A DNA stretch of 64,000 nucleotides. Origin: Fragilariopsis cylindrus CCMP1102. Taxonomy: Eukaryota > Bacillariophyta > Bacillariophyceae > Bacillariales > Bacillariaceae. Made by a program: the position numbers and the translations under genes. The notes below the pieces were generated by a model. It saw nothing but the letters and a program-made list of their open reading frames with translations. It did not search any database and was not told the origin of the DNA. Position 1 is the stretch's first letter. Every line of letters begins with the position of its first letter. Shown one piece after another: positions 7,101 through 27,577 of this stretch. The stretch covers positions 186,001 to 250,000 of the forward strand of contig FMBT01000303.1 in the NCBI GenBank assembly GCA_900095095.1, read 5' to 3'.

Positions 7101-8940
7101 AAGGAGCAGAACTGGGGTAGTAGCTGCTGGAAGGGGATTCACTAGGTGATCCACTTGGCTCTGAGCTAGGTGATGTTGAAGGCTTGCTACTTGGTGATTC
7201 AGAAGGACTGCTAGAAGGCGCTAAACTAGGCGAGGCACTTGGACCTCCACTTGGACCTTCTGAAGGTGATGCACTTGGACCTCCACTTGGACTTGCAGAA
7301 GGATCAGAACTTGGTCCTCCACTTGGACTTGCAGAACTTGGATCACTCGAAGGTGACGAAGTCGGAGGACCGGTGCTAATTTCCTCAATTGAACCGGTAG
7401 GTTCATAGGTAGATGGCGATGCTGAAGGTGACTTAGTAGGTGACTTAGTAGGTGCATCTGTAGGTGCAGCGAGTGTCGGTTGTGGCACTGGGTTCGTCTG
7501 TGGTTGTTGTGATGTCAAAGGAGTTGGAGGAATCTCAAAGGGTGGAGATGTCTCAACTGGTGCTGAATTAGGTGGAAGAGGTTGGTTGACTGGTTGATTG
7601 ATTGGTGGAGTAACCGGTTGACCTACTGGCTGTCCCGAGGGCGGAATCATTACCGGTTGACCTGCTGGAGGTACACTTATCGGTTGACCTGATGGCTCTT
7701 CCGAGGACGGTATAATTGCACTTCCTACTGACACTTCAGCCTGAACTCCGTCGGGCTGCTTAACTCTACTAGTTGTTGGACTGTCTAACTTTGGAATTTC
7801 GACTGGAGCTGGAACTGGACCTCCTACTGGCTGTCCCGAGGGCGGTATAACTGCACTTCCTACTGCACCTTTAGCCTTAACTCCAACTTTAGCCTTAGAT
7901 CCAGTTGTTGGACTGTCTAACTTTGGAATTTGGACTGGAGCTGGAACTGGACCTGCAGTTGGACCTCCACTTGGACTTGCTGACGGCGAGGGACTTGGAG
8001 CAACACTCTCTGCGGGATTTTTGTACTCAAGTCCAGGAGGACCTTCCCACGGAGCTGTACCACCAACAGTCGGTTCTTCGCTTGGACTTCCACTTGGATC
8101 CTCGAACACAGCGCTAGGCTTAGGAGTTGGAGTTGTGGGCGTGCCATCTCCGTCTTGATACCCTTCTGGGTATATAACAGGAGATGCCGAGGGCTCCAAA
8201 CTCACAGAAGGCATCGAAGATTCGCACCACTTCCCGCGAACATTGAACTGTTCATCACCCGCGGAACCAGCTGTTTTAAAACTGTCATGGTTACCGTAAC
8301 ACATGTACCTGGTGGGGGAGAAAGAAGCGGTCGCACCGCTTGGAGCCGATGGTGGTTGGGTCATAAAACTATGATTGGTATTGGGAGTTGGCGCCGGCGC
8401 TTCGGCGTCATCCTCGGAATCATCACTTGAACTCTTACTCTGGGACACCTGTGAAATACCAGGAAGCGCATTGCCGGTAAGGGTACGTAACTTTCGACAG
8501 TCTGGATCGTCGGGGTCATCGAAACACTTAGAAGGAATCGACTTGAACGAGGCCCGATTTTTCTTCAACAAAAGCGCACTGTTGGCATTGGAACCGGACG
8601 AGATATTGGGATTTTGTTTAGGAGCACGGGGATTGAAAACGGGAGAACAATATTTGACCTTGGCAGGATCACTGTAATCACAGAGCCTAACTTGATTGAT
8701 TTTGGCAGGGTCTACGTTCTGACCAAAGTAACGATAAAACCATGCCGTTTTCCTTTCCATCGTAATTTCCAAGGAGCGCAAAAATCCAATAACTCCTTGA
8801 CCTAGATCCGTATCAGGAACGAACACGCCATTGACGGACTCGGGCTTGATAGAACACAATAAAAGGGCGAGCACCGAAATGACACTAATCGCTCGGTACA
8901 TTCCCAACTTGTTGTCTACAACATTTGGGAAAAACTTCAT
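1..8940 (-). CDS. Secreted Pro-Ser (PSxP) repeat protein, C-terminus beyond the left edge
   Basis: This is a very large extracellular or cell-wall-type protein of the kind common in diatoms; its precise function is unknown. Translation starts at 8940 with a hydrophobic signal peptide (about residues 14-38, VISVLALLLC core). A Cys-containing N-terminal region and Pro-rich linkers (IPPSGQPVGQPV type) follow. About 4.7 kb then encodes PSxx tetrapeptides (PSSDPSASPSGGPS). After the repeats come a folded-looking region (2367-1560, FNFTDTTDELFEFEL, GPGAVCGIKSCLDG) and Cys/acidic modules. Exons by splice signals: 8940-1302, 1167-911, 803-590, 482-226, 118-<1. Introns carry GTAAGT/GTAAGA donors and TAG acceptors and keep phase. 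Two breaks occur. Eight bases are missing at 3974/3975 relative to the other repeat copies, and one A is missing in the minus-strand AAA at 2414-2416; restoring it reads EENTLAKEIVFVQ. Both look like assembly errors, but a truncated allele ending at 3910 is possible. Adhesion or frustule association is a guess. Confidence 0.8.
2640..7340 (-). repeat. PSxP minisatellite with 12-bp unit and about 408-bp higher-order repeat
   Basis: The basic unit is 12 bp, encoding Pro-Ser-x-x. It is organised into higher-order units whose equivalent points fall at 3052, 3460, 3868, 4268, 4676, 5048, 5396, 5804, 6272, 6740 and 7184. Spacings are 408, 408, 400, 408, 372, 348, 408, 468, 468 and 444 bp. All are multiples of 12 except the 400, which contains the 8-nt deletion at 3974/3975. 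The left-most units are almost identical, so recent expansion is at the 3' end of the gene. All six frames are open in places, and the antisense Leu/Gly-rich frames are not genes. Confidence 0.95.
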
Positions 8941-10113
8941 CTTCGATATTTCTTTCTTATTTCTTTTTTTTTTCTTTTTCTTTTCTTTTTTAAATAACTG
9001 ACTAACTAACTAACTAACTTTGATAATAGACTTCTGGTGAGTGTTTCTGCACAAACTTTTTAATTTTTTTATGTGTTGTATGATGTTTCAATTCGATGTG
9101 TAATGCAAAAACTGAGACGGTAGAATGTGCTAAGAAAGTAACAGGAGCGAACGAACATTAATCGACAAGATGTGCAATAATAAGCAAATAAATAAGCAAT
9201 ACATACCTCTGAGTCGAGTCATTTAAAATATGTAGGAGAACGTCACAAAATATTGGTAGCTGTAAAACACCTACATTTTATTTAACAATTTTAAAAAATT
9301 ACGCAAAACATATATGAATAAAGACTTCTCATCAGGGTCATCGGGTCGTGGAAATGTCGTGGGTCTATATAATATATTGTGGTGAATTAGTGTCACGCTA
9401 AAACACAAATGTTAATTTGTTTCGTATATTTTAAGTACCTTTAGTACTACATGTATATTCATGAGTCTCCTCTTGCGTGCACATACTTTGTCGACTCAAA
9501 TTTTTGTAATCGTACATTAGTCATGAATTTTCAACACATATGACATTGCGTAAGGCATAGTTGTTTGATAGTCATAAATAATGGTCCCTGCAGATTTGTG
9601 CCTTCAGTATCATTAGATGATATGCCGGTTAGTACGATAAAATAACACGTAGTATTTGGTTGTAACTTGGATATGCGCACAAAAGTCAGAACCAGCAGCC
9701 AAAAAAGCAAAACCAGTCGGAATTCACCAACAAAAATTCCTTTTTCCCCGCCAACTTTAGAGTTCATTCACGACTTATTTTCACCAGTTAATCGTGGCTC
9801 AATCAAACGTGCCCTTAATTAAATGTTCTTGAAAAAGCACTAAGAAGTTCACTTCTTCTACACGAAAAGAAAATGCCCCTAATTAAATGTTTCTGAAAAA
9901 GCACTAGGAATTTCACTGCTTCTACACGAAAAGAAAATGCCTCTAATTAAATGTTTCTGAAATAGCACTAACAATTTCAATAGCACTAACAATTTCATTT
10001 CTACTAGACGTAATAATGAAAAAGCACCCTATTGAACTGCTCAAATAAGCAAAAATTACTGTCTAGATGTACAACAAATATTCATTTAAATTAATCACAG
10101 TTACTTTTATGAG
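8941..10113. other. Intergenic, no gene seen
   Basis: AT-rich spacer upstream of the Pro-Ser protein. Directly 5' of its start codon (minus strand) is a purine-rich tract and an ACTA microsatellite (about 9000-9019). No conserved reading frame is seen; the 78-aa minus frame at 9531-9767 has no recognisable features. Confidence 0.6.
9811..10020 (+). repeat. 64-bp tandem repeat, three copies
   Basis: Copies start at 9811, 9875 and 9939 and share the core TAATTAAATGTTTCTGAAA and the tail CTACACGAAAAGAAAATG. The third copy is degenerate and carries its own internal duplication of AATAGCACTAACAATTTC. Confidence 0.85.
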
Positions 10114-10591
10114 CTACTTTTTGGTCAAATCGACAGGATCAGAATTAGAATCGCCGCTGATCAAATCAACCATATCAGGGGGAGCCCTTGGTCTTGCCGT
10201 GCGATTTGGATTTGGGTGTGAGATCTGTTGGGGGGTGATTGCATTTGTGTTGGTGTTAGGTCGTGCGATTGTACCGAGTGCTGCTGCCGTTCTTGCACAA
10301 ATAGGCGTATAACACCTAACGCAAAAAGAAGGAGAGGTGCAACATCGCACACGTGCAGCCCAGGCTGATCCCTGGGCCTCTCCAGCACTACTACCCGATG
10401 CTTGGAATTGGAATGAGGACGATGAGGATGAGGATGAGGATGAGGATGACGATGACGATGACGATGACGACGACGATGAGTACCTTCTGGCTACAGCTGT
10501 CCTGGCTCTCATTCCTGGACTTCTGTCCCATATTTCCTGTTCTGCCTCCGTTTTTTTTTTGGGCGTGGATTTTCGAGCAGTCTTATTTTAA
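10114..10591 (-). pseudogene. Serine-run protein fragment, possible relic of the neighbouring large-ORF family
   Basis: The minus frame opens after a stop near 10592, passes through TARKSTPKKKTEAEQE, then a run of about 20 serines. It ends with MVDLISGDSNSDPVDLTKK and a stop at 10114. No ATG precedes the TARKS stretch; the first is at 10512. Basic TARK and VDLT-type motifs also occur in the two large genes at 12.0-22.4 kb, so this may be a broken N-terminal piece of the same family. The serine run is a TCG repeat, which opens several frames by chance, so coding status is doubtful. Confidence 0.3.
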
Positions 10592-12017
10592 TTATTAAGT
10601 TAAAAAAAGAAATGGAAACAAATAGATAATTATGTTAGTTACGAATTGGTATTGGTTCGTGGTTCGTTATGGTTTATTCAATTGAATATATTTCCATGGT
10701 TTTTTTTCATTTTGTACTTACTTCTTTTGTTCGTGCCATAATATAGTAGTTCCTTCTGGTCGAATTACAGGATCAATTACTGGATGTATTATTGGATGTA
10801 TGTAAGATACTGTGGATGGATTACTGGATGGATTATTGGATGGATCACTTGGTGCTTGCTTGAATCGTTGACGCGTATCGTTGACACGTTCACTTGGAGG
10901 TAGTATTAGGAATATTCGTAAGATACGTCGCACCTCGTCGGAATGATCGGAAGATACTTAATATATCTGGATTGGATGGCACGTTCTGAAGCTCCGTGAT
11001 ATTTTTGAATTAGCTTGATCTTGTACTTGAATTTCAACAACACTGGTCTTGTCCTTTTATTTATCTTAAATAGCACGTGGATATGGTCTTTATGGTGTAT
11101 ATATCGATGCTTAGGCTATCGATTTTGGTTTACGATATATCGTATTTTCGATATCGTATTTTCGATATCGTATTTTCGATGCGTATGCTATCGATTCGGT
11201 TTATCAGTGCGTATGCTGCTGTAATCCGTTCTTGAACCTGGTGCTTATGCTGCCTGGTTAAAAATCTAAATATCACTGCACGAATCACTGGATGACTTAC
11301 TGGATGACCTATTGGTTGAATTTCTTGAATTGTCGACACGTTGTACGAAATGTACTTCGTTTAATATGATAATTGACCTGTTTCAATTCGAGAGATGCAG
11401 CTGGATTGTTTCGAAGTAGACAAAATCACCAACCAATAACTAGTACTTTGTTAGTATAAATGAAATTGAGGACTTCGAATCAATACAACAACACTTCCTT
11501 TTTCGCAATCGAGCGTTGTGTCGCTTTTTTCTTCACTTGTATCGTAAATAGAAATACGATATTACCGTGTTGGCGAGGTTGATATATGATAGTACCGTGT
11601 TTAGGCGAGTTCTGCGATCGACTGGAGTGAATATTTATTCGTTACACACGCCGTGCGTGCGCTCTAACTAACTAACTCGCATATTCGGTACTGTAAATTC
11701 CATCGTTTTTTCGCTGTATTTCAGTTGAGTTCCACTGAACACCGTGCGTGCGCTCTAAGTCTAACTCGATACAAGCGAGGAATGAGATAGCCACTTAGCA
11801 AAAAAAGCGATGATACATCCAGTAATTCATTCAATGATTCATCCGGTAACACACCGAAAAACAGCGAGTGATTGATTACGGTACACGCGATATAGTGAAG
11901 TGAACACCCATTATATTATTCCTTCTTTCATTTACACGCAAAATTTACACCGATTGATTAACCTTTTGGGTTCTGTTTCACACTCTCATAATTTACATTT
12001 ACTGTACAATCAACACA
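10592..12017. other. Intergenic with short minisatellites and Pro-Ser-like relics
   Basis: 10718-10933 (minus) reads QAPSDPSNNPSSNPST followed by HPIIHPVIDPVI, a fragment of a PSxP-type 12-bp repeat without a complete gene. Similar GGATG/ACTGG repeats occur at 11280-11320 and, on the plus strand, at 11812-11860. Near 11130-11180 there is a 14-bp repeat (GATATCGTATTTTC, three copies). The element CCGTGCGTGCGCTCTAA occurs twice, near 11650 and 11742. The last stretch before 12018 is presumably the promoter and 5' leader of the next gene. Confidence 0.6.
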
Positions 12018-15000
12018 ATGTTAAGGAAACAACAACCCAAGCACTCTAAGTCTAGATCAAGATCTCAGCGTCAATCTCTGGGTCGTCAACGTCGAAGTAC
12101 CGCTCGTTCTTTGAATGGGATGCCTACTTCGGATTCGACTGCCCCAGAATTGCGCGACGATACTCGGTATCACCTTGACCATGCGATGTTACCTCCTACT
12201 ACCCCCCCTCTGGTACTCCTCATTACCGCCGTACTCCCTATCACCGTCAAAACCACCCATCTATTTCCAGTCGCCACCGAGACATCAAACAAGCCCTTCT
12301 TCCGATCGATTCTAACTCTGTCAACAATCCTGATTTACTGTTGTACCAGCGCCACAATATCCAACCCACCATTCAACAACGTGATGAACAGAATAATGAT
12401 ATGTCTTTCTACGATACATCGTATGCTGGGTCTTCAATCTCATCCAATTCAATTTTTACTTCCTCACCGGAACTTCACCCTGCCCGCCGCAACCGGCACC
12501 TACCCAGACAAGACCTTATTGATTCATTACCACCATTCCACCAAATTGGTCAATCTTATATTGGTTCTCCTATTTCCACTTCAACTCAATCCCATGGTGT
12601 TGCTCGCCGCAAACCTCCACCAGTCCAGTCACCTGCTGCTGCTCGCGGTAGATCTACCACCAGTCAAGACTTTGATTTTACCCGCCGTAAATCTCAACCA
12701 GCTCTGCCACCTACTGCTGCTGCTGCTCGCCGTGCTAACCGTAAATCACCACCACTTTCCTCTCCTACCTCTAGACGTACGGTTCGTAAACTCGGTAGAG
12801 AGGACTGTCCTACAATCAGTCGCAACAATGATGAATATTTCAATGATATTGATCATGATGACCATGGTGATGACGATGCTGATGCTGATGATGACGACGA
12901 CAACGCTGGATCGATGCCCGACTTGCAAGAAAGATCGCCATATGATAGCAGCGACAGTGAGGATGATGATGAGGATGATGATGACGGATCGATGCCCGAC
13001 TTGCAAGAAAGATCGCCATATTGTGGCGACAGTGAGGATGACGATGACAACGCACCCGATGATTTTTCCGGTGGTTCGACTGGTGATTTTTCATGTGATT
13101 TGTCAGGCAATTCGACTGGCGATTTTTCATGTGATTCGGCTGGTGATTTTTCATGTGATTTGTCTGGTGCACCTCCCCGCAAAAAATCCACACTTCAACC
13201 ACCTGTTCCTACTTCCGCCCGCCGCCGTACATCTACCGCTACTACACTCCTTGGTTCAAGACGCCGTAAATCTACACCACCTGTTCCTACTTCCGCCCGC
13301 CGCCGTACATCTACCGCTACTACACTCCTTGGTTCCAGTCGCCGTAAATCTACACCACCACCTGTTCCTACTTCTGGTCGCCGTACATCTACCAGATCTA
13401 CTTCAAGTACAGTCTTTGGTTCAAGTCACCGTAAATCTCCACCACTATCTGTTCCTGCTTCCGCTCGCCGCCGTACATCTACCGCAAGTATTGTCCTTGA
13501 TGCAAGTCGCCGTAAATCTCCACCGCTTTCTGGTCCTACTTCCACTCGCCGTACATCTACCGCAAGTATTGTCCTTGGTGCAAGTCGCCGTAAATCTCCT
13601 CCACTATCTGGTCCTATATCAGATGATTTTCTAGATGATTGTTCTGGTCATTCGGAGGATGATTCATCGGGTGATTCGAATGGTGATGCCGAATGCTATA
13701 GTACCGAAGACGGTGAAATTGTTGATTTGACCTCCTCTCGTCGCCGCCCAAAACTCAAGTCTCAGTCTCGTTTCATTTCCCTTGTTCCCGGTGCAGGTGC
13801 TCGTGTTGGTGGTAGTGGTGTTGCACGCTCTAATGAATCCACGGCTGACTCGGATTACAACAACAATTCAAGCATGGATGGGTCCGAGGATGATTACCTT
13901 GATGAAGATTTATACGATGACGAGTCGGTGGTTGTAGTAGAGTCGGGTTCAGGTGATGATGGTTTTGACGATGGAGTTTCAGAAGTTCACCGTGCTGATG
14001 CTGCTTTCTGGAGTTCTGCGAACTGTCCCAAAGGTCTTTACCTGGTGGCTCATACAGAAGATGAGGCTCATGTTATTGAAGATCGCCAAGCAGGTCAAGT
14101 GTATGCCTTCAAACAACTTACCACCATCGACCATCTACAAGTTCGTCAAGAAAAGTTGGGTTCGTTTCTTCGTACAACGTTAGCTCCAGATGTCCCAGTC
14201 CATTTCTACCGCAATCATCGCAACCATACAAATTCATTTTGTGCTGTGATGAATGAAAAGCAATCTGTCGCATCTGTAATTGATTCATTGGATTTTGTCA
14301 CCATGCACAAACATGTATCTGCAGTAAATCCCAAGGATGTGCATGGATGTACCAGGCAAAAGGATCAAACACGAGTCTCGTACGGGTACGCGACCAATAC
14401 ATGTATGCGTCGTGATGAATCCGGCTCCTCCGTTCCTAACCTTCTTAAAGGAACCAGTTCCATCTTTTCACAACATATATTTGAGGGTCTGTCGTCAATC
14501 TTTGATTTGCCCGACCTGCCCTCCTGGGCCTGTTACGAAGCTGATCCACTGCGTCAGGAATACGCTCAGGCAATTGCCAAGAACAATAAGATTGAAGGAG
14601 CAACTATTCACCAGTCCTCCCCCAAGAACCCATGTGCTTCCCATAGGGATGGAAACAATCCTGATTGCACTGATGAAGATCAATTGTCGTTGGTTGTTGG
14701 CGCTTCGAAATGGGTGAAAGGTGTCCGTGTGGGTGCAACTGGTTATTTTCGCAAAAGTATTTCTGATGCAATTATTCGAAAGGCGAAAAATGCTCCCATG
14801 CTAGATGAATTGCTCCAAGTCTACTCGCAGTTTCCGGACGATCGCAAGCACATGGATCCGGAAACGTTAGCTTTATACACCGAAAAAGGCAATGTTATTG
14901 ACAAGCATCATGTTTCTGTTCCGTGTAACCTTAATCCCCTAGGTAAGTTTGCATCCTTGTTCTTGTTTTCCAAAGAAACAGCTATCTGTTGTACTCACCC

Positions 15001-16123
15001 CTCCTTCATTGCTGCTCCTCCCTCATATTATATTGTTGATCTAATTTTTGCACCTTGGTTAGGTTTTCAATCTTTATTTGTGCATTCTACGTGCCGTATT
15101 GTTGACAAGTTTCGATTTACACTGCCCATGATCCTCAGTTCTCTAATCTGTATGGACGTTGTTCCGAACTGTGCTTATTTTTACGACCTGGCGGTGGATG
15201 ACCTTGTTCGCGGGAGAATTCAATTTGAAGGTGATCCTTGGTTGATTGGTCGATTTATCGCATTGAATATGCTTCGTTTACGCAATCGCTTCTTTGCCAG
15301 GAACACTTCGCCGGGCGGGAAGAGCAAGAAAATTGCCCTATATCGGTACAACTGCTACAAGGGATTTGAAACAGAATCCGATATCCCCAATGAGTCTGAC
15401 TGGATTGATAGGACTCTGAAAAAACTAGCTGTGATAATGGGGATCTGGATTCTTGCTCCTGCGAAACCTAATTTGGCCTCGATTAGTGGTGTATACGAGT
15501 CTTGCTCCAAACTTTATCAGGATACAACATATGGTTTGGGTCATCTGCAAGCAAAACATCAGTTTGCTGTACTGTCATATTTTGGTTGTCTTCCTGATTG
15601 GATTCGCGACTATGCTCCCATCAGTGGTCGTGTGTTGGGTTTCTTCCAGAAACGCTACCCCGAACTCAAGTGGAGTAAGGAACCCGGTCGATGCACCATG
15701 ACTACAATTCAAACCTTCTTTGAGCATCGTATTCGCGAATGGTGGACGTATTCTACATTGGAGAATGTAATGTGCAAGGTCTACCGTATACTTTCTCCAA
15801 AAGGTTCCGATTCCCATTTTGTGGATGTCCATAGAGTGGATGAGGTCCTACTTGTGCAGGGACAATCCTCACTGTCAATTTCGTTTCCAGATGGAGAATT
15901 GCTTCCTCTGGATTCCAATTACTTGTGCAACGAATGGGAATTGGTAGATGGGATGTACGTAGCACCTTCCGACATTGCCAACCAGATTTTCGCCAACTCA
16001 CTTTGGACCACCACTTCGAAGTTTCCCTCTTTGGGTGAATTGTTGGTTGATGATGTAGCCGATCGTATTATGGCCGCCTTTCCGTTGATTCAAAAAAAGT
16101 CGAGCCTTGCCTTTTCCTTTTAA
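12018..16123 (+). CDS. Large protein of unknown function, partner gene of a candidate tyrosine-recombinase element
   Basis: About 1,328 aa if read as one gene. It starts at 12018 (MLRKQQPKHSKSRSRSQRQ). The frame must shift once in the C7 run at 12202-12208; one added C joins MLPPTTP to SGTPHYRRTPYHRQ. A 120-nt intron (14943-15062, GTAAGT...TTAG) gives NPLGFQSLFVHS and, being a multiple of three, leaves the frame open if retained. The N-terminal third is basic and disordered. It has the signature RRTVRKLGREDCPTI, acidic runs, the repeat GSMPDLQERSPY, and six Arg-rich RRKSTPPVPTSARRRTST repeats. A SUMO-interaction-like EIVDLTSS follows near 13720. The C-terminal two thirds look folded: CASHRDGNN near residue 873, GYFRKSISD about 40 residues later, then GLGHLQAKHQFAV and LPDWIRDYA. 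I do not recognise this fold. His-x-Asp plus a downstream Arg could suggest a 2OG-oxygenase-like core, which is speculative. Confidence 0.7.
14943..15062 (+). other. Probable 120-nt intron in the large unknown gene
   Basis: Donor G|GTAAGT at 14943 and acceptor TTAG at 15061-15062, interrupting a codon for Gly. The intervening segment translates to an out-of-character hydrophobic stretch (SLFLFSKETAICC). Removing it joins NLNPL to GFQSLFVHS in frame. The length is typical of introns elsewhere in this window. Confidence 0.65.
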
Positions 16124-16260
16124 AAGGAGGAACTCACGAACCAATGTTTCCTTTATGTATTTATGTTATATACAATTTATGCTCCTAACTGTTAATAAAG
16201 TAATATTTACTACAAATCTGTTCTTTACATGTAGATAGGTTTTCTCCTCCGTATATACTC

Positions 16261-16405
16261 CATTGTGCAATTCTCTTGATCTTCTTGCTAGTACTTACTG
16301 CATTGTGCAATTTTCTTCATCTCCTTGCTGGTACTGCTGTGTCTAGAAATGCATTGTGCAATTTTCTTCATCTCCTCCTTGCTGGTACTGCTGTGCCTAG
16401 AAATG
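16261..16405 (+). repeat. About 52-bp tandem repeat, three copies
   Basis: Units start at 16261, 16301 and 16352 with the core CATTGTGCAATTTTCTTCAT and a tail GCTGGTACTGCTGTG. The first copy is shortened. Confidence 0.85.
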
Positions 16406-16439
16406 TCCATTGTCAATAATTCCCTGTTGGTATCGTAGA

Positions 16440-16657
16440 AGAGGGGCAATGCAATGGAATGGATGGTTCTATACTTTGTATGTGCCTTTCTCACTGTGCA
16501 TTGAGAGTTATAAAATAATGGGTTGTTGCTCCACCACTAATACGGAGAAGAGGTGCCATGCAATGGAATGGATGGTTCTAAACTTAGTATGTGCCTTTCT
16601 CACTGTGCATCGAAAGTTATAAAATAATGGGTTGTTGCTCCACCACTAATACTTGAT
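16440..16657 (+). repeat. 109-bp direct tandem repeat, two copies
   Basis: The segment beginning ATGCAATGGAATGGATGG at 16449 recurs at 16558 with few substitutions. It ends in GGGTTGTTGCTCCACCAC followed by TAATAC. A weaker third trace (ATGGATAGCACTATACTTGG) follows near 16687. Confidence 0.85.
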
Positions 16658-17178
16658 GAAGACATTTTTCATAATGGGTACTATTGCATGGATAGCACTA
16701 TACTTGGTATCTGCCGTCCCAACCCTGCATCGACAGTCAAAGCGTAAAGCCTATTGACATGCTCTTAACATTAATCGTATCCTTATCCCCCGTTTTCCTA
16801 AAGAATGATTCTAATATGCACATATTGGGCCACGTACCTATACCGTTTCTCGTAATAGTAGGTAATTTTGAATTTATGGCGACTGGTGGCGAATGCACGA
16901 GGGAATTGTAACGGCGGGTGCAGGTTTGTCTTGTTTATAAAAAAAACGGGGTCCCATGGGATTCAGATGTCATGACAACCACATGTAGGTGGAAAACAAA
17001 CACCGAACCGAAATTCTATGATCGTGATCGTGCCTTCAACTTGTAACAAAATAACGATGGCAACGTTGGGCATCAAGCAAGAGGAGGATTCTTCGCTATA
17101 CTATAGCTATTTGTAGTGGTAGGATTTATATTTGTTAAAACTATTACCTATTATTTATATACGTAAGACTAAATTACG

Positions 17179-17730
17179 GTGTATGAGCCGAATACTGCGT
17201 TTCTGGTTTCATCAGGCAACTCGCTCATCTCAGTTTCGAATTTAACACTAACGTGCGCTTGCTGTGGGAAAACTTGCTCTTCGTATGTCGGGGTGTATAA
17301 ACATAGCCATAAATGCACAAAAATCCACCCACACGAAAAGATGGTTGGAAACAGGAAAACGGCACCTAAACCGATTGAAACCGAAACCACTCGGAAGGAG
17401 GATGGTCCACAACCAGCAAAAATAAGTCCACAAGGCGATACACCAAATTGGATGGAAGAGGGATTGAATTACATGGGATCAAAGAACACCGAGGGTGTAA
17501 TAGAATCACAAGATATCATTGGTACAGGAGAAAACAACCACATACACAAAGAAATGTCAGCAGACACGAGACCGGAGCACGACATACACACCACATCCAA
17601 TACACCAATGAGGGAAAGGTGCATTAAAAAAAAACGCGAAGTAGAGAAACGTGAGGTTAGAAATCCAGTGCAAACGAGGAGCCGGGCAAAGGTGGTAACA
17701 AGTACCGATCCTGTTATCGGATACGTGTAG
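17179..17730 (+). CDS. Small zinc-finger protein between the two large convergent genes
   Basis: A 183-aa frame from ATG 17183 or the near-start at 17179. Residues about 27-47 form CACCGKTCSSYVGVYKHSHK-C. This is a CxxCGxxCxSxxGxxxHxxxC finger of the type found in transposon and retroelement proteins. The rest is hydrophilic with a basic tail (KKKREVEKREVRNPVQTRSR) that could bind nucleic acid or localise to the nucleus. It ends 72 bp before the 3' end of the opposing recombinase gene. Its placement inside the candidate element suggests an accessory DNA-binding protein, which is inference. The finger could also be a relic of an unrelated transposon. Confidence 0.55.
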   Translation: MYEPNTAFLVSSGNSLISVSNLTLTCACCGKTCSSYVGVYKHSHKCTKIHPHEKMVGNRKTAPKPIETETTRKEDGPQPAKISPQGDTPNWMEEGLNYMGSKNTEGVIESQDIIGTGENNHIHKEMSADTRPEHDIHTTSNTPMRERCIKKKREVEKREVRNPVQTRSRAKVVTSTDPVIGYV

Positions 17731-17802
17731 AAAATTCTAGAACTAGGTATTTTAAACAATAAAGGAAAACTTAAAAAACGTAAATATCTTTTTATCAGTA
17801 AG

Positions 17803-20800
17803 TTAAAGTACGGGCATATTATTTTTTTTTTTTTTTTTTGACTTTGCCTTTTTGGTAGAGGGTGGTGGGGTCGTCCATACGGCGGCACATTTTTTGGCGA
17901 TACACGGGCACAATGGCTTCTGTTCGATTTTGTTCTTACCAAATTCCCAAGAAGGGTGAGCAACAAAGAACTTGTCAGCATCACCATCGTGGCAATTAAA
18001 GAGGCACGTAGCAAAGTAAATTAATTGACAACGATGTTGACGATGAAAGCGGAGAAAGCCAAGTTTCGGTTCAATATCTTTGCCTAAATCGAAGTCGGAG
18101 CATGTATTAAATGACCAACCATTAAAGTCGAGATTGTGACTGTGAACGGTGAGAGAGGCACTTTCGTGATATAGGCGGTAGGTGGCGTATACTAGGTGTT
18201 GTCCTTTAAGCTTGAAGAAATCCTTGCGAATATTCTCTTCTGCTTTCAACCTGTAGTAAATTTTTTCAGATTTGAGGAACCGGTGTGGCTCGAGGAAAAG
18301 GAATTGGTCGACCGGCTGGTTAGGATTGGAAGAAATCAGATCACCCATGGAGGCTGAATCTAACACATCGGTTTTTGTGATAATAGAAACATTGGCGGGC
18401 ATTTCGTGGATGTGGTTGTACTTGTACCGTGGAGCAACCCCGGAAGCTTCATAATCTTGATCAATACATTTAAATATATCCAATCGTTGAGCAGCCGTCA
18501 TGGAAATGGCTAGGAGTTTCTGTTCCAGGGTGGATTGGGACTCTTTGGTGAAACGCCTCAGGTAGGATTTTTGGAGGAGAAAGTGGGCATTTCGGTAATT
18601 GGGATCTGTTGATGAAACACGAAGCATATCTTCGACGAAATATCTCGCAATATCTTGAATGTTGTGACTGTTCGAGAGACGGGGACTACCTATGAGATTG
18701 TATACTCTTTGCAGGGTGCTTTTGGAACCTTTGCAGAGGTTAGTGGTAAATGGATAGATAGCTAATGCCTTCCGGAGCTTAGATTCCCTAACCATTAATT
18801 CGCGATAATGGCATGCGTCACCCCGGTATTTTTCTGATACATTTTGAGAATTGTGACGAGCAGCTTCCTTCACGCGATCCGGGTCGCCTCCCCCCAAAAC
18901 ACCAAACATGTAATAAGTGTGGCGACCGACATGCGACCCAATGCTAATTTCTTTAATGCCCGGTAAAGGATCGTGACTAGCAAAGAATATTTCTTTCAGC
19001 CACTTTGTGTAATAACCTTTTGTGGCTTCTTCTATATCTAACAGCCGCTTTTCCAGTCTTTTTTTTTTGAGGGATGTATACTCGGCAGAATCATTAGTGG
19101 AAAATGTGATCGGATTTTCCGCAATTTTTTGGGTAAGCCTAGCAGCAAGAGGAATAGTGAAAAGTTTTTCATCGTTGAATTCATGGGGTGGATGCATGGG
19201 TGAACCAGATTCTGGATCGACGTCGTACCCGTCTGGGTTGGGCTGGTCAATGTTGGCTTCGTAACGGTGTACATGAATATAGACGAGAAGGTGACGCATG
19301 TAACATAATTTTGGGAAATTGTCTTTCCACTCGACGTTGTACAAAGTGGGCTTTAACTCCCCTTTCTCCCAAACCTCCTTGGGAAGGGATTGTATTCCAA
19401 GTAGTTCCGACTGCCTCATAGCCCACAAATGACGATTGAATTCACCCATGTTCGAGTTGACAAGTCCACAACCACGATTGGCTAATGTAAAAGATTGGAT
19501 GAGCATGAGGAAATACGTAAAATCTAATTTTTCAAATTTTTTAGCCTCAACTAATTTATGTATCGACAGCATCTCTGGTGGAATAAAGGCATCTCGTTGT
19601 TTTGGTATGATTCCAGATTTCTTGGCAAAATTACGCATATCAGCCTTGGCCAGTCGGATGTCGGGTGAATGACAAGGATTCCCGGTAGAAAAGAAACGGG
19701 AACTCGCCGATCCGCAACCATAAATCGTGTGATGAGTGCATTTTGGAATTACGCCGTCGGCTTTTTCTGCCGTGTATTTAATTAACTGTTGCCTGCATTC
19801 ATGACAGAATTTATCAAATGGACCCACAAGACCATGTGACTGATGCAGGATGGTAAGGGGACTAAAAGTGTGTTTCATATTATCTAACGATTGACATCCC
19901 CCTTGTGCATGAATATGCGTGCCAAAAACATCACGAAGTGGAACTTTTTCTACGTCAAAATCCGCAAACATCGGTGTGCCAGGTGGGGACATCTTGTGCC
20001 GAATGTATTGTCGAATAGTAACGGGGTCCATGGGGGGACAATGTTTGGGAGGGGTTTCCAACATAATCAACATGGATTCATAGTCACCAATGATTGCGCA
20101 GAAAACATACAAATGTCGGATAATACCTTCCATCAAGTTTGCCGCTCGAGGCCCAACTCTGCCTCCAAATCGAGCCGAACCTGCTCCGGACATGTACGTC
20201 GGACCTTGGGATAAATTTTGCGCATGGTACTCTTCGATGGACTCGGCATGGGATTCATTGAACAACCGGGAGGCACGTGATCCGGAATCACAAATGGATG
20301 CAAACTGTATATAATGCCCACCGTGTTTACGTAATCGACTAATAACCTCGGGAAGTATATCTAGGTTAAGTGAAAGTGCCAATTCAAGGATTTTATCAAC
20401 GGAGTGTGACAAGTATGTGTTTTGGATGACTTTTTTCTCTTTCTTGTGGTTAGAATATAGTGAATGTGGATAATCTGGGAGGAGGTCAAAAACGGATTTA
20501 GATTTAGATTTTTGAGCGGTGGCGGTAGTCGTACTCGAATCAGTTGTCGTGGGCGCTGTTGTGCGAACTCCAACTGGGGAAATGAGGGCACTTCCTCGGC
20601 TCAAGTGGTTTCGTGGATTAAGGCGACCGGGTCTGCTAACACGAGTACCTGAACCACCGTCTGTAGTATTATTTAGAGCAGCAACTATACGCGTTTCAGC
20701 CTGTTCCATTTCGGTCGGTTGACGGATAGCGGTGTTTTGAAGTACACCCAAAGCAATTGAAGAATTGGGTGGCGAATTGGCTGACTTGTCCGGCGGTTGG

Positions 20801-22395
20801 CAAAAAAAACAAATCATCCCAGTTCCGTCGTGACTTGGACCGTCACCGTTGCCTGAGCACAAAGCGCCATGGAATGGACCTTTGCATTCCGTGCAATGAT
20901 GTTGTATCGCGCCTCTGATTGTTCCACCAATCGTACAATACTCAAGAGCACAGCATTTAGGCAACTCGGGTGAAGAATCTGGTAAAGAATCGGGTGAAGA
21001 ATTGGGTGAAGAATTGGGTGAAGAATTGGGTGAAGAATCGGGAGAAGACTCGGGAGAAGACTCGGGTGGAGACTTGGGTGGAGAATCGGGTGAAGAATCG
21101 GGTGAAGAATCGGGTGAAGAATCAGGTGGAGACTCGTTGCTTTGCGCCTCGAAGCGAGCAATACCACGGATTACCTCTGCACGGTTCCATGATACGCTGA
21201 AGATGGAAGGTGATGACATTTGAATAAAAAAATCATCAGCGTCAACGGCATATTCACCATCCACGTCATCCCCCTTATCAACGAAGGGAAGAACTCTACC
21301 TACACTATTGCAAGGCCCAAGAACATCTCTACCAACAAAACGGTGGGGTGTGGTACCTCCGCCACCACGTAATCGGAGAACCGCGGCTGGAACACACGGT
21401 ATACCATCTTCTTCATTTTCACCATCCTCATTGTCGATATCATGATCATCCTCAAAATCACTGTCGCTGTCGCTTGGGCAGGAATATCTACAACTCAAGT
21501 CGGGACACGATCCATCGTCGTCATCATCCTCGCTGTCGCTGCTATCATATGGCGATCTTTCTTGCAAGCCGGGCATCGATCCATCGTCGTCATCATCCTC
21601 GCTGTCGCTGCTATCATATGGCAAAAATCTCCCTGGCAAGCCGGGCATCGATCCATCATCATCATCATCATCATCATCATCTTCATCTTCATCTTCATCT
21701 TCGTCTTCATCCTCATCATCACCACCATGGTCATCTTCATCACCATCAGCTTCATAATCGTCAACATCTTCGTCGTCTGCGTCATCATCGTCATCATCAT
21801 CTTCATCTTCATCATCTTCATCGTCAAAAACATTAAAACATTCATCTTTCTTGCGACAGATTGTAGGACCGCCTTCTTTACCGAGTTTACGCGCCGTACG
21901 TCTAGAATAACTGCGTGTAACTCTTTTAGTTTTTTTATCTTCTCTAATACATAGAATAATAGATTTGGTGGGTGGAACTACTTGTGTATCAGATGATTTC
22001 GTTTCAGTTGTTTCCACTCTAATACCATCATTAGACATTTCCACGTCTTCCATATATGGGGTCGTGGGCAGAATAGGCTGTTGCTTGGGACGAATCATTT
22101 GTGTTTTTGGTTCGAACACGTTAGCAAAAACTTGTGGTTCGGAAACGATCATTGTCTTATTCATCGGGTGAATCTGCGTGTCTGCGACATGCATCGATGG
22201 TGCGGCATTTGATGGTGCGTGAAAGATAGTGCGGGGGGGACAGGCATCCGTGCCCCCCAAACGAGGGTAGTTCCGAGCATTTAACACTAAAAGAGGTGGA
22301 GACGGTGTGTGTTTTCGTTTACCTTTTGGAATGCAGAGTTTGAATCCAATATTATCTAGCTTGGGCCAACTGAAAGGAGTACTTTGGAAAACCAT
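17803..22395 (-). CDS. Giant tyrosine recombinase with PHD-like zinc finger (Crypton-like)
   Basis: About 1,530 aa if translation starts at ATG 22395 (MVFQSTPFSWPKLDN). The frame is open to 22671, but that upstream part looks non-coding and contains a TATA-like tract. Order of regions: basic signature RRTARKLGKEGGPTI (about residue 180), long Asp/Glu tract, Ser/Asp repeats, Pro-Ser-Asp repeats (PDSSPDSSP). A Cys/His finger follows at about 480-527 (CC..C, C-x2-C, HxxxC, CFFC). Then come a helical core-binding-like segment and the catalytic domain. Catalytic residues as in the phage-integrase/tyrosine recombinase superfamily: Arg in LANRGCGLV (about 972), HVGRHT (HxxR, about 1153), RHNS (about 1180) and nucleophile Tyr in SEKYRGD (about 1187). 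A Lys-rich tail ends the protein. The coding frame is intact. Predicted role is DNA strand exchange for a transposon; the closest known class is Crypton. Confidence 0.78.
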   Translation of the reverse strand: MVFQSTPFSWPKLDNIGFKLCIPKGKRKHTPSPPLLVLNARNYPRLGGTDACPPRTIFHAPSNAAPSMHVADTQIHPMNKTMIVSEPQVFANVFEPKTQMIRPKQQPILPTTPYMEDVEMSNDGIRVETTETKSSDTQVVPPTKSIILCIREDKKTKRVTRSYSRRTARKLGKEGGPTICRKKDECFNVFDDEDDEDEDDDDDDDADDEDVDDYEADGDEDDHGGDDEDEDEDEDEDEDDDDDDDDDGSMPGLPGRFLPYDSSDSEDDDDDGSMPGLQERSPYDSSDSEDDDDDGSCPDLSCRYSCPSDSDSDFEDDHDIDNEDGENEEDGIPCVPAAVLRLRGGGGTTPHRFVGRDVLGPCNSVGRVLPFVDKGDDVDGEYAVDADDFFIQMSSPSIFSVSWNRAEVIRGIARFEAQSNESPPDSSPDSSPDSSPDSPPKSPPESSPESSPDSSPNSSPNSSPNSSPDSLPDSSPELPKCCALEYCTIGGTIRGAIQHHCTECKGPFHGALCSGNGDGPSHDGTGMICFFCQPPDKSANSPPNSSIALGVLQNTAIRQPTEMEQAETRIVAALNNTTDGGSGTRVSRPGRLNPRNHLSRGSALISPVGVRTTAPTTTDSSTTTATAQKSKSKSVFDLLPDYPHSLYSNHKKEKKVIQNTYLSHSVDKILELALSLNLDILPEVISRLRKHGGHYIQFASICDSGSRASRLFNESHAESIEEYHAQNLSQGPTYMSGAGSARFGGRVGPRAANLMEGIIRHLYVFCAIIGDYESMLIMLETPPKHCPPMDPVTIRQYIRHKMSPPGTPMFADFDVEKVPLRDVFGTHIHAQGGCQSLDNMKHTFSPLTILHQSHGLVGPFDKFCHECRQQLIKYTAEKADGVIPKCTHHTIYGCGSASSRFFSTGNPCHSPDIRLAKADMRNFAKKSGIIPKQRDAFIPPEMLSIHKLVEAKKFEKLDFTYFLMLIQSFTLANRGCGLVNSNMGEFNRHLWAMRQSELLGIQSLPKEVWEKGELKPTLYNVEWKDNFPKLCYMRHLLVYIHVHRYEANIDQPNPDGYDVDPESGSPMHPPHEFNDEKLFTIPLAARLTQKIAENPITFSTNDSAEYTSLKKKRLEKRLLDIEEATKGYYTKWLKEIFFASHDPLPGIKEISIGSHVGRHTYYMFGVLGGGDPDRVKEAARHNSQNVSEKYRGDACHYRELMVRESKLRKALAIYPFTTNLCKGSKSTLQRVYNLIGSPRLSNSHNIQDIARYFVEDMLRVSSTDPNYRNAHFLLQKSYLRRFTKESQSTLEQKLLAISMTAAQRLDIFKCIDQDYEASGVAPRYKYNHIHEMPANVSIITKTDVLDSASMGDLISSNPNQPVDQFLFLEPHRFLKSEKIYYRLKAEENIRKDFFKLKGQHLVYATYRLYHESASLTVHSHNLDFNGWSFNTCSDFDLGKDIEPKLGFLRFHRQHRCQLIYFATCLFNCHDGDADKFFVAHPSWEFGKNKIEQKPLCPCIAKKCAAVWTTPPPSTKKAKSKKKKKNNMPVL

Positions 22396-22460
22396 TGTGT
22401 ACGGGAAGCAAAAACAGTTGGGGTGAATGGATTTGGGACTTCGGAAAGATGAAAATATTT

Positions 22461-22468
22461 TTTTATAA
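22461..22468 (-). promoter_or_regulatory. TATA-like box for the recombinase gene
   Basis: On the minus strand the sequence reads TTATAAAA about 65 bases before ATG 22395. This supports that start over the upstream open codons to 22671. No experimental or comparative support is available. Confidence 0.3.
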
Positions 22469-22671
22469 GAAGTATAAAAAAGGAGGATATGGCACCACAG
22501 GACATGTAATTTTTTTGTGAAATTTGAGGTTTTGCGTGAAATAGGTGTGAAGACTATGGGAAAAACAGAACAACCGACTAAGCATGTGTTTGAAAATTTG
22601 GATTTTTTAGGCGGGATAGACATTTGGCTAGAAAGCCAGCTGATCAAGCAGTTTTGGCGCCACAGCCACAC

Positions 22672-23552
22672 TCCTTAGCCGATTTTTCTTTAAAAAAGAA
22701 AAATGATTTCTTTTTTTTTATCTTTCTCATATCGTAGTCGTAAAGAGAAATAACACGCACACTTTCACACTCTCACACTCAAACATGGGACATCGTAAAT
22801 CAACGAGTTAAGAAAGTTAAATTTTTATATTTTAGTGTGTTACTTCTTACAGAACAAATAGCTCAATCAAACCTCTACAAGACGACACAGCACGTGTCAT
22901 GTATAGTAAATGGGTCTTTATTTTTCTATGATTTCTGACTTTCAGGGGAGCTAAAAAATAGTCATCAAATAAATCATGATCATACTCAGTCCATTCTCAT
23001 AGTGCATACAATAATAAGAAGAAGATAGTCATTGTAGATATGGTCTTGTTTTATGAGGTAAAGAAGAAGAATAAGAATAGGAATAAGATCATGTTAGTAA
23101 CTGTGACAAATCTAGTAAAGTGGCGTAGATTTTGTACAACAGGTTGTCAGTAGGGTATGCAATATTCTGTGTAAATGTGTCTAGCTACCTAAGTTCACTA
23201 GACTGAAGACTTCTAAGCAATTAATAAGGTATATAAATAGTATTATTAGAAGTGTGAGCTTAGTTGCTCTCTAAGATAGGCTATATCTACTCATATGGTC
23301 TGTCCTTGGTGGTCATTCCATAGTGACACATGTCCTAAGCCTACACTTCCCCACACTTGCAGAATCTAGACCATCAAAATAGTGTTTTGATGTAGACTAT
23401 AATAGTGAGACCAGTGGGTTAGATCTATAAGTGGAGACAGACACATATATAACTTGTTATTTGAAGCTGCCTCGCTACTACTCACCGTCTTAGAAAGACT
23501 AGTAAGTCAACAGTCGACCCGCCTATAATTATTCTATAGTATTGATACATAA
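22672..23552. other. Intergenic, transposon-flank sequence
   Basis: AT-rich and non-coding. Bases 23446-23525 (AACTTGTTATTT ... CTTAGAAAGAC ... AGTCAACAGTCGACCC) resemble 28720-28805 inside another insertion. This part is therefore probably the end of a retroelement (LTR or 3' UTR) belonging to the neighbouring relic. Confidence 0.5.
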
Positions 23553-26500
23553 TTAAGTAGGGACAGCACCAAATCTAGCATCAATGGACTGATTCAGCAC
23601 ATCTAATACCGGTTGTACTCTGTTAGTTGATCTCTTTTTCCCCAATTTTGTAAACATCCTAGTGAGTATATTTTTTACTACCTTAGTTTTCTTCTGAATT
23701 GCTGGCGGCGCCTGACTGGTTGACCGTTTTGTATTGGTTCTAGAGAATACATTGGTCAGTGGGTTGTTAAACATTCTCTTTGGGAGGCCATGTTTCCTTG
23801 TGTTTACATGCCTAGTCACCTTTGTCTTTGCCGGCCTATCAGCCGTGTAGTGCCTCCAAATTAGCATGCTTCTTTTCTGCGCCATCTCTTTGACCATCTT
23901 CATGCTATGATCTATGATGACTGGTCTCCACCTTGTTATCCATTTCTTGAGTTGCTGATTTGTTGCCTCCAGTCTTATTTCCAGTGTTTCATTAAAGATC
24001 TTTATCTCATCTTCCGGTAATACCATTTCTCTCAGTGTATATAAGTGTGTTATTTTCTTTGTGAGGGAGTCATATTCTGCTACTATTCTTCCTCCTACAA
24101 CCAGTGTGTTCCAATCGATGCACTTGTCTTTCCACATCTCCTTTATAAAGGGGACTATTGCCTGGAAGAAGGAGTGAAATGCTTCTGTTTTGTTCTTCCT
24201 TTTACCTTTGTTTGTTTCCTTATCCCTTTTCCTATTCCTCATTTTCTCTGCGTGTAATCTTGGATGCTTCAATCGTACTCTGTTAACATAAGCTCTCTGA
24301 TATATCCTCCACACTGCTTCGTGAATTTTCCTCTTAGCAGATTGTCCCAACCTATCAACAGTTGTTCATCAATGAGTAGTCATATCGTTCCATTCCTTTC
24401 TGACCTCTTATTCTGAACATTGTATTGGTCATGCACTCTCCCAAGAAGTAGGCCATGATCCCCTCCTGCAGTATGTCACATATTTTCCCATCTACTGTCA
24501 GCCTTCTTAGTGTCTTTATCTGATTTATGATACTTCGTCTGTGTGCCTTCCTTTTTCCACAAGTAATATGTGATTGTCATCTTCTACTGGTTGCCAACAT
24601 GATGCACACCTCTTGTCATGAGACTGATCTCTTTGGTGCACCCTATTCCCTGTTGGCAGTTTCCCACTGCAAAATTTGTGCATCCATTGTATTCCATTCT
24701 TCACAATGTACTTTTTGTATACCGGCCTGAGTATGTCCCAATCCACTGTGTCAAAGATGGTGTTGCTCCATCCAAACTTGTCAAAGTAGTACTTCTTTAG
24801 CTGCGGTACTGATAGTATCTCGCTGATGGACTGCTTGAGATCCCTTGTTATAGTTCTCTCCTTAAGATGGTACTGGACTACTGTGTCCGGGTCCATGAGA
24901 ACTTTTGGCTTTTCTTGTAATCTCTTCAAACCTACTGTAGCTTATTCATCTGCCTCAGAGTTCAGATATGCATCCAATGGCATTTCTGTTGTATCATCAT
25001 AGACCTTATCATCCTGATGACTTTCACCCGGATTGATTTTTGGGTATGTTGGAAACCATTGTAAAGCTCAATGTAATGCTGATAGTACGTCCCATTTGGA
25101 GTGGAGGACTGTCTTCAATGGCGCTGTGGGATAATCGCTGTATGCCTCTAGTTTCTACATCATGCTCAGGCTGTCTGTGTAGAATTGGAATTCCCCTTTT
25201 GCCTTCTCAGTGTATGAAAGAATGTCATCGTACTGTATCAACTTCGTAATCAGCCTTACTGCTGCAAGGAATGCACATATTTCCAACCTAAATGACAGTG
25301 GATCGTGTCCTACTGGTTGTCCATAGCAAGTTAGTAGTATCGTTCCTTCTGTATCAGCCAATACAAAACCCAAAGATCTCTTGTATGGTATGGTACTTCC
25401 GTCTGTGGCAATAAGAATTTTCCCTGCAGTCTTCAACTGTTCATATATTTGGATCGGTACTGTGTGGAAATCTACCTGTATGTAGTAGTGTGATATGTGT
25501 TCCGGTTGTTGCAATAGGGCCGATAGAAAGTTTGTTGGTGTTGCCTTCTGTTTGACTTCACCTGTATCGAGAACCTGATAGAAAAGAAATCCTCCATCCG
25601 TCCGTCGCAGCAAAGACATCAACTGGGACTGTGTCCTCCAGCAATCTATTTACGTTGTCATGCTGTACAAAATCAAATGTCTCACTGCCTACTCCTTGAT
25701 GGCAATCAAAGCTAAATACTCCCTGTGTATGCCAATTTTTCCTGTAACTCCTATATAATACATTTTTGTTGTTTGAATAATAAAATGGCCACAGCCTCTC
25801 CGAGTCAATTGCTTGTACTAACCAGTCACCCAATGGCAATCGTAATCTTACTCATTTCCCCGTTGCTTTGACTTTGTCTATTCCTGTTGTGCATATATGT
25901 TGTACATCGGGTCTATTGAAGCTGAACATAGTGTCCTGAGAAACTTCCTCCATATACCCCATGTTGCTTCATTCAGACGCTGTTGCTTGATTTCTGAAAG
26001 TCTCGAGCTACTCTGTTGGATACTGCGTTGCCCTTTGTGTACATTAGGTATAATGAATGTCCCATCTGCTGTACATAGGTCTGAAATTCTTTTCACATGA
26101 AGATAGCTTTTACACCAGTACAATTTTCTAATTTCCATGTTTGTATAATGCTTTAGGTGTTCCATCTGCAATGATGTCGCCTGTGACGGCGTCATCATTG
26201 CATCCATTATATGTTCATCTCCACTTCTTTCCACCACTGGATGTGGCACACATGCTATCTCCAGACTGCCATCTGTTTTTGCCAAGAAACGTCCCATGTT
26301 AGCGTAGTAGTACCCCTCCAGATGAGGCGCTCTTCCCTTTGGGTATTGTAGTAGTGGCAGGGAAATTACAGATGCATGTTGAAACCATCGAAGAAATACT
26401 GTTGCTATGTCCTTGCCATACCCTGGTGTTCTCATCTGACGAATTAGGTTTTCCACTGATGATATTCCTTGTTCACTGTGCAGATCTTGACAGCCGATGC

Positions 26501-27577
26501 CTCCGTAGGATCAAGTGCCAAAGACTAATGAGTGATCATGAGTGCGAATGATGCCTATCTTATTTAACAATGCTGGTATGTATTTTTGTTGAAGTCCATG
26601 CAGTTGCGATGGACTCATGACACATACTAAGTGGGTATCCTATGCTACTTTGAAAGACTCCCGTGTAATGCACCCAGGCACAGCGTGGTGACATTGCGGA
26701 GCATGCCAATTTTCTTACCAAGACTTTGGATCTCTTTGTAAGGTCCCTATGTTGATGACGTTGGTTTTGGCTGATTCCCTGTTTTGTTCCCAGGAAGCTG
26801 TACTACATTGAAAATGGAGATATGGGTTTGAGTACCACATCCTTTTTGTTGAGCCTGTCTTGTACAATGATTTCAATATCCGGATCTGCAGGTGCAACAA
26901 CCGGCCCTCCGGTCTCCATACCATTTTCTCGTGTCCAAAGTTGATGTATCCTATCATTTCGTCTACATTCTCTGATATTAAATCGCTTGACATCCATAGG
27001 TTGTTACTTCGCAGATAGTTTAATAAGCTGTTCCGCAACTCTAACTCGTTGTATTGCATTGTTGCTTTGATGAAATTTCTGTACGTTGTAGATCCTTTGT
27101 TTTCATATACCTCAAGGAAATCTTTGAAGGCTGCTTCAGTTTGTGGATATTCTTGAATAGTCGTAGAGGGTTTTGGTTGCGGAAACATGTTGTTATTCGT
27201 TGGGTGGAATGTAATACCTGGTGACTTTATCATCGTCTGTGTCAATGCTGCTTGGAACTCTGCGTCTGGGTCTTTGTTTGTTATTGTCTTTGGGTTGAAA
27301 CTGATTCAGTTGATGCTACGTTGTTGTTGTCCTTTGGTTTCTTCTTGCCTGGTCTTGTTGTTGTCCATCCTTCTTCATCGGTGTTGTTGTCATGGCAATT
27401 ATCGGTATGTTGTGATACAGATTTTGCTAAAATCATTTCTCCATCATTTTTCCTCGGATTTTCATTCTTTTTGTAGCTTGAATTGGTTCCTACAGATAAT
27501 TCGTTGACTATGCTATCAATACTGTCAAAATTCCATCCTGCTTGAATAGTATTTGACATGATTACCATGGTCGACAC
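23553..27577 (-). pseudogene. Decayed retroelement polyprotein with RNase H
   Basis: Consecutive minus-strand pieces of one polyprotein in broken frames. 27577-27281 and 27245-26715 are the N-terminal parts. 26456-25878 carries the LYWCKSYLHVKRISDL region common to algal reverse-transcriptase-like proteins. 25622-25155 is an RNase H domain (IATDGS, GFVLAD, LEICAFLAAVRL, FYTDS). 24929-24525 has WMHKFCSGKLPTG and CASCWQPVEDDNHI. 24350-23553 is the basic C-terminus. Stops and shifts separate the pieces, and no intact reverse transcriptase palm (xxDD) could be seen, so the element is dead. Family assignment is from remembered motif similarity only. Confidence 0.65.

Follow-up and report, generated by a model that had tools for sequence, protein, structure and literature searches.

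A deleted copy of a candidate multi-gene tyrosine-recombinase transposon in Fragilariopsis cylindrus

Introduction

In the window, the 64,000-nucleotide stretch of Fragilariopsis cylindrus DNA analysed here, two large genes converge on a zinc-finger gene. The original prediction read this arrangement as a possible new tyrosine-recombinase element, perhaps recently active. The locus raises three questions: whether the minus-strand gene encodes a tyrosine recombinase, whether its neighbours belong to the same unit, and whether that unit is mobile.

The minus-strand gene

The recombinase gene (17803-22671, minus strand) is open from 22671 to 17803, with its first ATG at 22395. It is 1622 amino acids long as a stop-free frame and 1530 amino acids long counted from that ATG, so the frame is uninterrupted as predicted. 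From base composition alone, the probability of such an opening by chance is approximately 10^-40. The catalytic stretch (18826-19485, minus strand) runs from the arginine of LANRGCG to Y1282 in EKY and is placed by the motif, the alignment to a relative at the C299 locus, a 17-sequence model and a profile-profile comparison. Residues 1247-1282, HVGRHTYYMFGVLGGGDPDRVKEAARHNSQNVSEKY, are a form of tyrosine-recombinase box II and include H1247, R1250, H1273 and Y1282, with spacings of 26 and 9. Upstream of box II there is an R at LANRGCG and a K at WKDN. The spacings are those of XerD, whose R148, K172, H244, R247, H270 and Y279 were checked on its gene. This exact pattern of H, R, H and Y occurs somewhere in 44 of 20,000 shuffles of the window protein. 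The window recombinase and its relative at C299 are 34% identical, with R, K, HxxR, H and Y aligned in register. Motif, spacing and 17-sequence model thus bear out the R, HxxR, H, Y set that was predicted for this gene. The set does not lie at the end of the protein, as had been claimed, since about 340 residues are C-terminal to the catalytic tyrosine.

Strength of the recombinase assignment

The 17-sequence model is made of bacterial and phage recombinases in which R, H, R, H or W, and Y are aligned in 17 of 17 sequences and K in 12 of 17. The window recombinase scores 7.3 bits against this model (core 8.8) with its box aligned, and none of 1000 shuffles scores as high. It tops the 32 targets, apart from the same ORF re-entered as a control. 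The C299 relative scores -1.6 bits, a value that 272 of 1000 shuffles equal or exceed, and its best alignment is still at the same box. A third locus, C89, has a gene in the same position that scores 3.7 bits (3 of 1000 shuffles); the match is at residues 573-614, away from the R/H/Y motif. This gene contains the motifs GGRGAE, HSAKK, W and Y and appears recombinase-like by motif only.

In the profile-profile comparison, the window recombinase is aligned at the box with a local score of 25.4, against a best score of 19.8 in 200 column shuffles. For this positive comparison, hhalign's own probability is 9.6% (E=0.0033), and the global setting returns nothing. A profile comparison with five recombinases is not significant. 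The PHROG_216 integrase matches the window recombinase with E=0.11 when the 935-residue C-terminal part is used, 0.024 with 261 residues and 0.0028 with 76 residues around the box. The fair value is 0.11 because shorter cuts lift the significance by choice. The PHROG scan of the C299 and C89 boxes gives no integrase match.

The Pfam search that the original prediction proposed, together with NCBIfam, gives no recombinase or integrase match for the window or C299 proteins. The identification therefore rests on the motif together with weak-to-moderate profile evidence. A few weak matches of these two proteins to other families in the Pfam, NCBIfam and PDB scans (E of 0.16 or above) are taken as chance. 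By sequence, the PDB contains no match to the recombinase pair or to the plus-strand gene, and the C89 gene has matches there only with E of 0.41 and above. AlphaFold2 on the two-row recombinase alignment has a mean pLDDT of 29.1 with no residue at 50 or above, which is no evidence on the fold. The R, K, HxxR, H/W and Y that characterize the tyrosine recombinase superfamily are present in order and at the usual spacing in the window and C299 proteins, which are putative members on this basis.

In the genome, nine loci exceed the PF00589 (phage integrase) cut-off, and the genes in the recombinase position of the window, C299 and C89 are not among them. These nine loci are on C60, C81, C635, C306, C523, C166, C532, C341 and C774; a tenth, on C648, is below the cut-off.

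Composition of the window recombinase gene

The window recombinase gene is mosaic in make-up. Its residues 688-1597 and the C299 protein align at 31% identity (E=1e-129). Upstream of this core, a zinc-finger-like segment (residues 570-631; 20779-20964, minus strand) is 69% identical to a protein at C66:85853-88195. An N-terminal acidic block (21513-21906, minus strand) is common to the recombinase and the plus-strand gene in both inverted DNA matches and protein comparison. Positions 12770-12905 pair with 21771-21906 (80%) and positions 12890-12977 with 21513-21600 (90%), which agrees with the N-terminal signature originally described for the two genes. More overlapping inverted pairs between the plus-strand gene and the N-terminal DNA of the recombinase are 71-93% identical, and recombinase residues 245-280 resemble the plus-strand protein at 50%. 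The recombinase ORF also encodes LRLRGG at 21361-21378 (minus strand), the C-terminal sequence of ubiquitin.

The first ATG lies within a segment (22306-22731, minus strand) that is repeated at C44, where 22312-22731 matches C44:31999-32419 with 99% DNA identity. Over its first 122 codons, the ORF matches the C44 segment at 95% amino acid and 99% DNA identity, and these codons may not belong to the original coding sequence. At C44:31999-32419, the 420-bp segment has the nine bases TAGTCTAGA on both sides; they adjoin one edge and lie about 30 bases away from the other, which gives the segment the look of a recent insertion there.

In genome searches, the recombinase core has one relative, the C299 protein (approximately 34%), and the C299 protein finds the window alone. 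The C89 gene finds only itself.

The plus-strand gene

The plus-strand gene, GG (12018-16123, plus strand), is real, spliced and, in the window copy, frameshifted. Its intron (14943-15062) has GT and AG in five of five aligned copies and is 120, 123 and 121 bases long in the three copies measured. Near 12210, one base is missing relative to both other whole copies. The gene shifts frame by one base at this point, so the ORF at 12018-13634 is partly a frame artefact. The large plus-strand gene that was predicted therefore exists, but its reading frame was partly wrong.

In the conserved part of GG (674-675 codons, Nei-Gojobori), dN/dS is 0.196 between the window and C89, 0.242 between the window and C299, and 0.137 between C89 and C299. 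The corresponding dS values are 0.242, 0.181 and 0.139. Judged by these ratios, purifying selection appears to have acted on GG over much of the period since the copies diverged. Such constraint fits an active element family and a host gene family equally well. A 2-oxoglutarate dioxygenase function for GG is no more than an idea. Its H-x-D and RKSI residues, found in six of six rows covering that part, resemble those of this family, and there is no Pfam or structural support.

The outer, upstream region of GG (9716-12017) contains pieces that blastn finds in common with C299, C89, C649 and C311. It includes 64-nt repeats at 9810-9979 and an ORF at 10114-10512 (minus strand). Residues 76-130 of this ORF match C299 at 84%; no match to it is listed in C89, C649 or the C311 stretch compared.

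Copies of GG elsewhere in the genome

A DNA search of the genome with 12018-22395 finds whole GG copies at C299:165243-170232 and C89:380886-386127, with piecewise identities of 82-90%. Whole copies are few, with three GG loci including the window, at 82-89% DNA identity. The flanks of the three loci differ from one another where compared. Between the window and 30 kb each of C299 and C89, blastn matches over 70 bp are confined to window positions 9716-21906; the homology runs across GG and then upstream in pieces to 9716. The search that was originally proposed for finding copies and ends has thus yielded the copies but not the ends. A single copy per genome had been named as evidence against a mobile element, and this is not what is seen: the genome contains GG copies with different flanks.

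When the conserved GG part is used as a protein query, the genome gives 10 matches on 7 contigs. These are the three whole copies, relatives on C649 and C311 at 41-47%, and weak matches on C636 and C531 at 26-27%. Pieces of the GG start are present on C175, C464 and C242. The C649 and C311 loci are highly similar to each other and perhaps represent a single event. At both, a gene that is transposase-like by eye (C649:46319-47998 and C311:127095-129846) converges on the GG relative at a distance of about 100 bp. No Pfam model matches this gene.

A fuller block at C299 and C89

The C299 and C89 loci share one order. GG is followed by a second gene and a tandem array of approximately 185-bp units; after these come a small gene, a zinc-finger gene and, convergent with the latter, a gene in the recombinase position. 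Counted in codons from stop to stop, at C299 and C89 respectively, the second gene has 506 and 636, the small gene 360 and 302, and the recombinase-position gene 1054 and 732. The array has 8.7 units at C299 and 10.7 at C89. Apart from the array, the block has five genes in C89 and six in C299. Between the recombinase-position ORF and the farthest sequence in common with the window, it is 18.6 kb long at C299 (154194-172775) and 17.7 kb at C89 (371041-388700). The window copy (9716-22671) is 13.0 kb long.

The neighbouring genes of C89 and C299 are related to one another. In one-to-one BLASTP comparisons, which are not genome-wide, the zinc-finger genes match with E=1.6e-9, the small genes with 3e-12, and the second genes with 7e-41 over 142 positions at the N-terminus. 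In a whole-genome search, the C89 zinc finger finds that of C299 at 4e-5, among nine matches on five contigs; the C89 small gene finds only itself. In C89, the second gene has a C-terminal part that belongs to a family whose relatives at other loci adjoin a repeat. The DNA of the arrays is approximately 70-78% identical. In a search that skips very common words, the array query matches the C299 and C89 loci, together with a single 80-bp piece at C652 and two 38-bp pieces that fall beyond the array.

The recombinase-position genes differ in this respect. In pairwise BLASTP, those of C299 and C89 do not align, and those of the window and C299 are 31-34% identical. In all three loci, this gene is convergent with the zinc-finger gene and ends approximately 70-150 bp from its stop.

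This shared position bears on the reading that GG is part of a different element, mobilized by some other enzyme (for instance the product of the convergent gene at C649 and C311), with the recombinase as a neighbour or nested insertion. The GG relatives at those two loci (41-47%) lie about 100 bp from that transposase-like gene, the upstream region of GG is partly common to both at 82%, and the recombinase searches have no match on either contig. However, all three whole GG loci have a recombinase-position gene that keeps its location and orientation next to a homologous zinc-finger gene, and the C649/C311 gene lacks a Pfam match. We regard a separate GG element as quite unlikely.

The deletion in the window copy

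The zinc-finger gene of the window (17179-17730, plus strand) matches the C89 copy (E=6e-60) and the C299 copy (E=1e-5) in pairwise blastp. The frame lies where the original prediction put it, between the two large genes, but is truncated on its 5' side. Downstream of GG, the window tracks C89 to approximately 17228 and then runs on inside the zinc-finger gene. The junction of these two sequences (17228-17236) is located by blastn and by alignment to the copies. Just to its left there is a 133-nt dispersed repeat (17096-17228), found in the DNA search of the genome. Missing from the window are the second gene, the array, the small gene and the 5' portion of the zinc-finger gene; this last portion is present in C89 and C193. 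Judged by this comparison, the window copy looks like a defective, internally deleted derivative of a larger multi-gene block. Nothing shows the recent activity that was proposed for it: the one relative of the recombinase core found in the genome is approximately 34% identical.

Ends and surrounding repeats

The outer-flank comparison, TATGG motifs and a repeat search give no convincing ends, terminal repeats or target duplications, nor an empty site in this genome. TATGG occurs 0 to 6 times per flank in six flanks, and does not locate the ends. Positions 9797-9808 and 22861-22872 form a 12-base direct repeat (E=0.038) that is likely due to chance. It is set aside as an element boundary because C89 shares window sequence further to the left (9716-9799).

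These results enter into a host-gene reading, under which a gene cluster around GG has spread by segmental duplication and the recombinase-like genes are domesticated DNA-binding proteins. Such a cluster would accord with the finding of only three whole copies, with the constraint on GG and with the failure to find ends, and Crypton recombinases are described as having been domesticated repeatedly (PMC3212892). It accords less well with the different flanks where these are compared, with the full R-K-H-R-H-Y set retained by the window recombinase and with a recombinase-position gene that changes while its neighbours stay. On this evidence a host cluster is unlikely.

Several repeats surround the locus. 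Long, regular tandem arrays occupy 2650-7954, where a 408-bp unit with 98% matches is present at 2650-4842 and the other units are 348-468 bp. The repeat at 23445-26585 is multi-copy: it starts sharply at 23445, is present on many contigs and contains a frame that looks RNase H-like by eye, with no Pfam match. Between 26908 and 29983 there are several blocks of approximately 290-690 bp that are also found on other contigs, where some pairs keep their order.

If the neighbours were there by chance, a standard Crypton or DIRS/Ngaro retroelement would explain the tyrosine-recombinase box, and the RNase H-like repeat adjoins the recombinase gene from 23445. We find this very unlikely, since that repeat begins sharply and matches many other contigs, the two fuller copies are multi-gene and in the same order, and the nine PF00589 loci of the genome exclude these genes.

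A remnant of an integrated Polinton-like DNA virus is less credible again. The size of approximately 13-19 kb and the tyrosine recombinase are compatible with it, and such viruses are described as able to carry a recombinase of this kind (PMC12220804). Among the element proteins scanned, however, Pfam matches no capsid, packaging ATPase or polymerase family; the recombinase pair, the C89 gene, GG exon 2 and the C311 gene have no relatives in the viral contigs scanned; and GG has an intron. A protein search of phage records and an Rfam search at gathering scores over 9000-24000 give nothing useful.

Discussion

On balance, and with modest confidence, we read the window as a defective copy of a modular, multi-gene family of tyrosine-recombinase DNA transposons of approximately 13-19 kb. 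The original prediction placed a tyrosine recombinase and a large partner gene in one element; this is still the best reading of the locus, but the unit is larger than the convergent pair. The changing genes in the recombinase position beside the same companions suggest a jumping element with an exchangeable mobility gene.

From one end, the fuller unit would consist of a small divergent ORF (in the window and C299 only), GG, the second gene, the 185-bp array, the small gene, the zinc-finger gene and the facing recombinase gene. The recombinase would excise and insert the element by tyrosine-recombinase strand exchange at short recombination sites. The zinc-finger protein, whose gene is adjacent to that of the recombinase in three of three loci, may bind the element ends and guide the recombinase. 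GG would be a nuclear protein with an accessory role, conserved between copies. As for the recombinase module, it may have been exchanged, or may have diverged much faster than the rest of the block. The finding holds up and is of more interest than a gene pair alone, but the window copy is damaged. The gene order, the differing flanks, the constraint on GG and the box of the window recombinase are shown; mobility of the family, its mechanism, the roles of GG and the zinc finger, and the exchange are what we infer.

Comparison with known systems

Most descriptions of tyrosine-recombinase DNA transposons in eukaryotes concern small Cryptons or fungal Starships. The block resembles CryptonS, known from oomycetes and a diatom, in its R-H-R-Y tyrosine recombinase and in that no reverse transcriptase was found in it. 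It differs in having five or six genes and an internal tandem array, where CryptonS is defined by a recombinase alone or with one C48 peptidase gene; the Pfam scans of the block proteins match no C48 peptidase. The window and C299 recombinases are also longer than 1000 amino acids and have extra cysteine-rich segments. CryptonS elements are described as having direct repeats of 5-6 bp at their termini, TATGG in most cases; one additional protein is described for some of them (PMC3212892).

The DIRS and Ngaro retroelements encode a tyrosine recombinase, and this is their likeness to it. They differ from the block in that its scanned proteins have no reverse transcriptase or RNase H Pfam match; the neighbouring RNase H-like repeat is independent. 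For the brown alga Ectocarpus, one paper lists DIRS tyrosine-recombinase retrotransposons, and the word Crypton is absent from its main text (PMC12477816).

Searches of open PubMed Central papers found no element with a multi-gene body and an exchangeable recombinase. A parallel is with Starships, which are large multi-gene units with a tyrosine recombinase, the DUF3435 captain. Near-identical Starship cargo is reported with different captain families, and captain swapping is raised there as a question (PMC12134995). Different captains on like cargo resemble the changing recombinase of the block. Within Pfam, the C-terminal part of the window recombinase, the C299 recombinase and the C89 gene match neither DUF3435 (PF11917) nor any other family up to E 10, in a search whose HMMER filters drop most matches above 0.1. 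The block is at the lower end of the Starship size range, its accessory genes are conserved between copies and are not variable cargo, and its host is not a fungus. A Starship has its captain at one end and is flanked by direct repeats; the recombinase-position gene is the last gene on its side common to the copies of the block, whose ends are not located.

Tentatively, and with more doubt than confidence, we suggest that a conserved body of GG, array, small genes and zinc finger has been reused outside fungi, in an alga, with different, even non-homologous, recombinases, and that GG also serves another transposition chemistry. This would be an independent parallel to captain swapping in Starships. 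If so, large recombinase-driven elements would seem to have arisen outside fungi as well, and the family would allow a test of whether targeting depends on the recombinase alone, with the body carried along as passive cargo.
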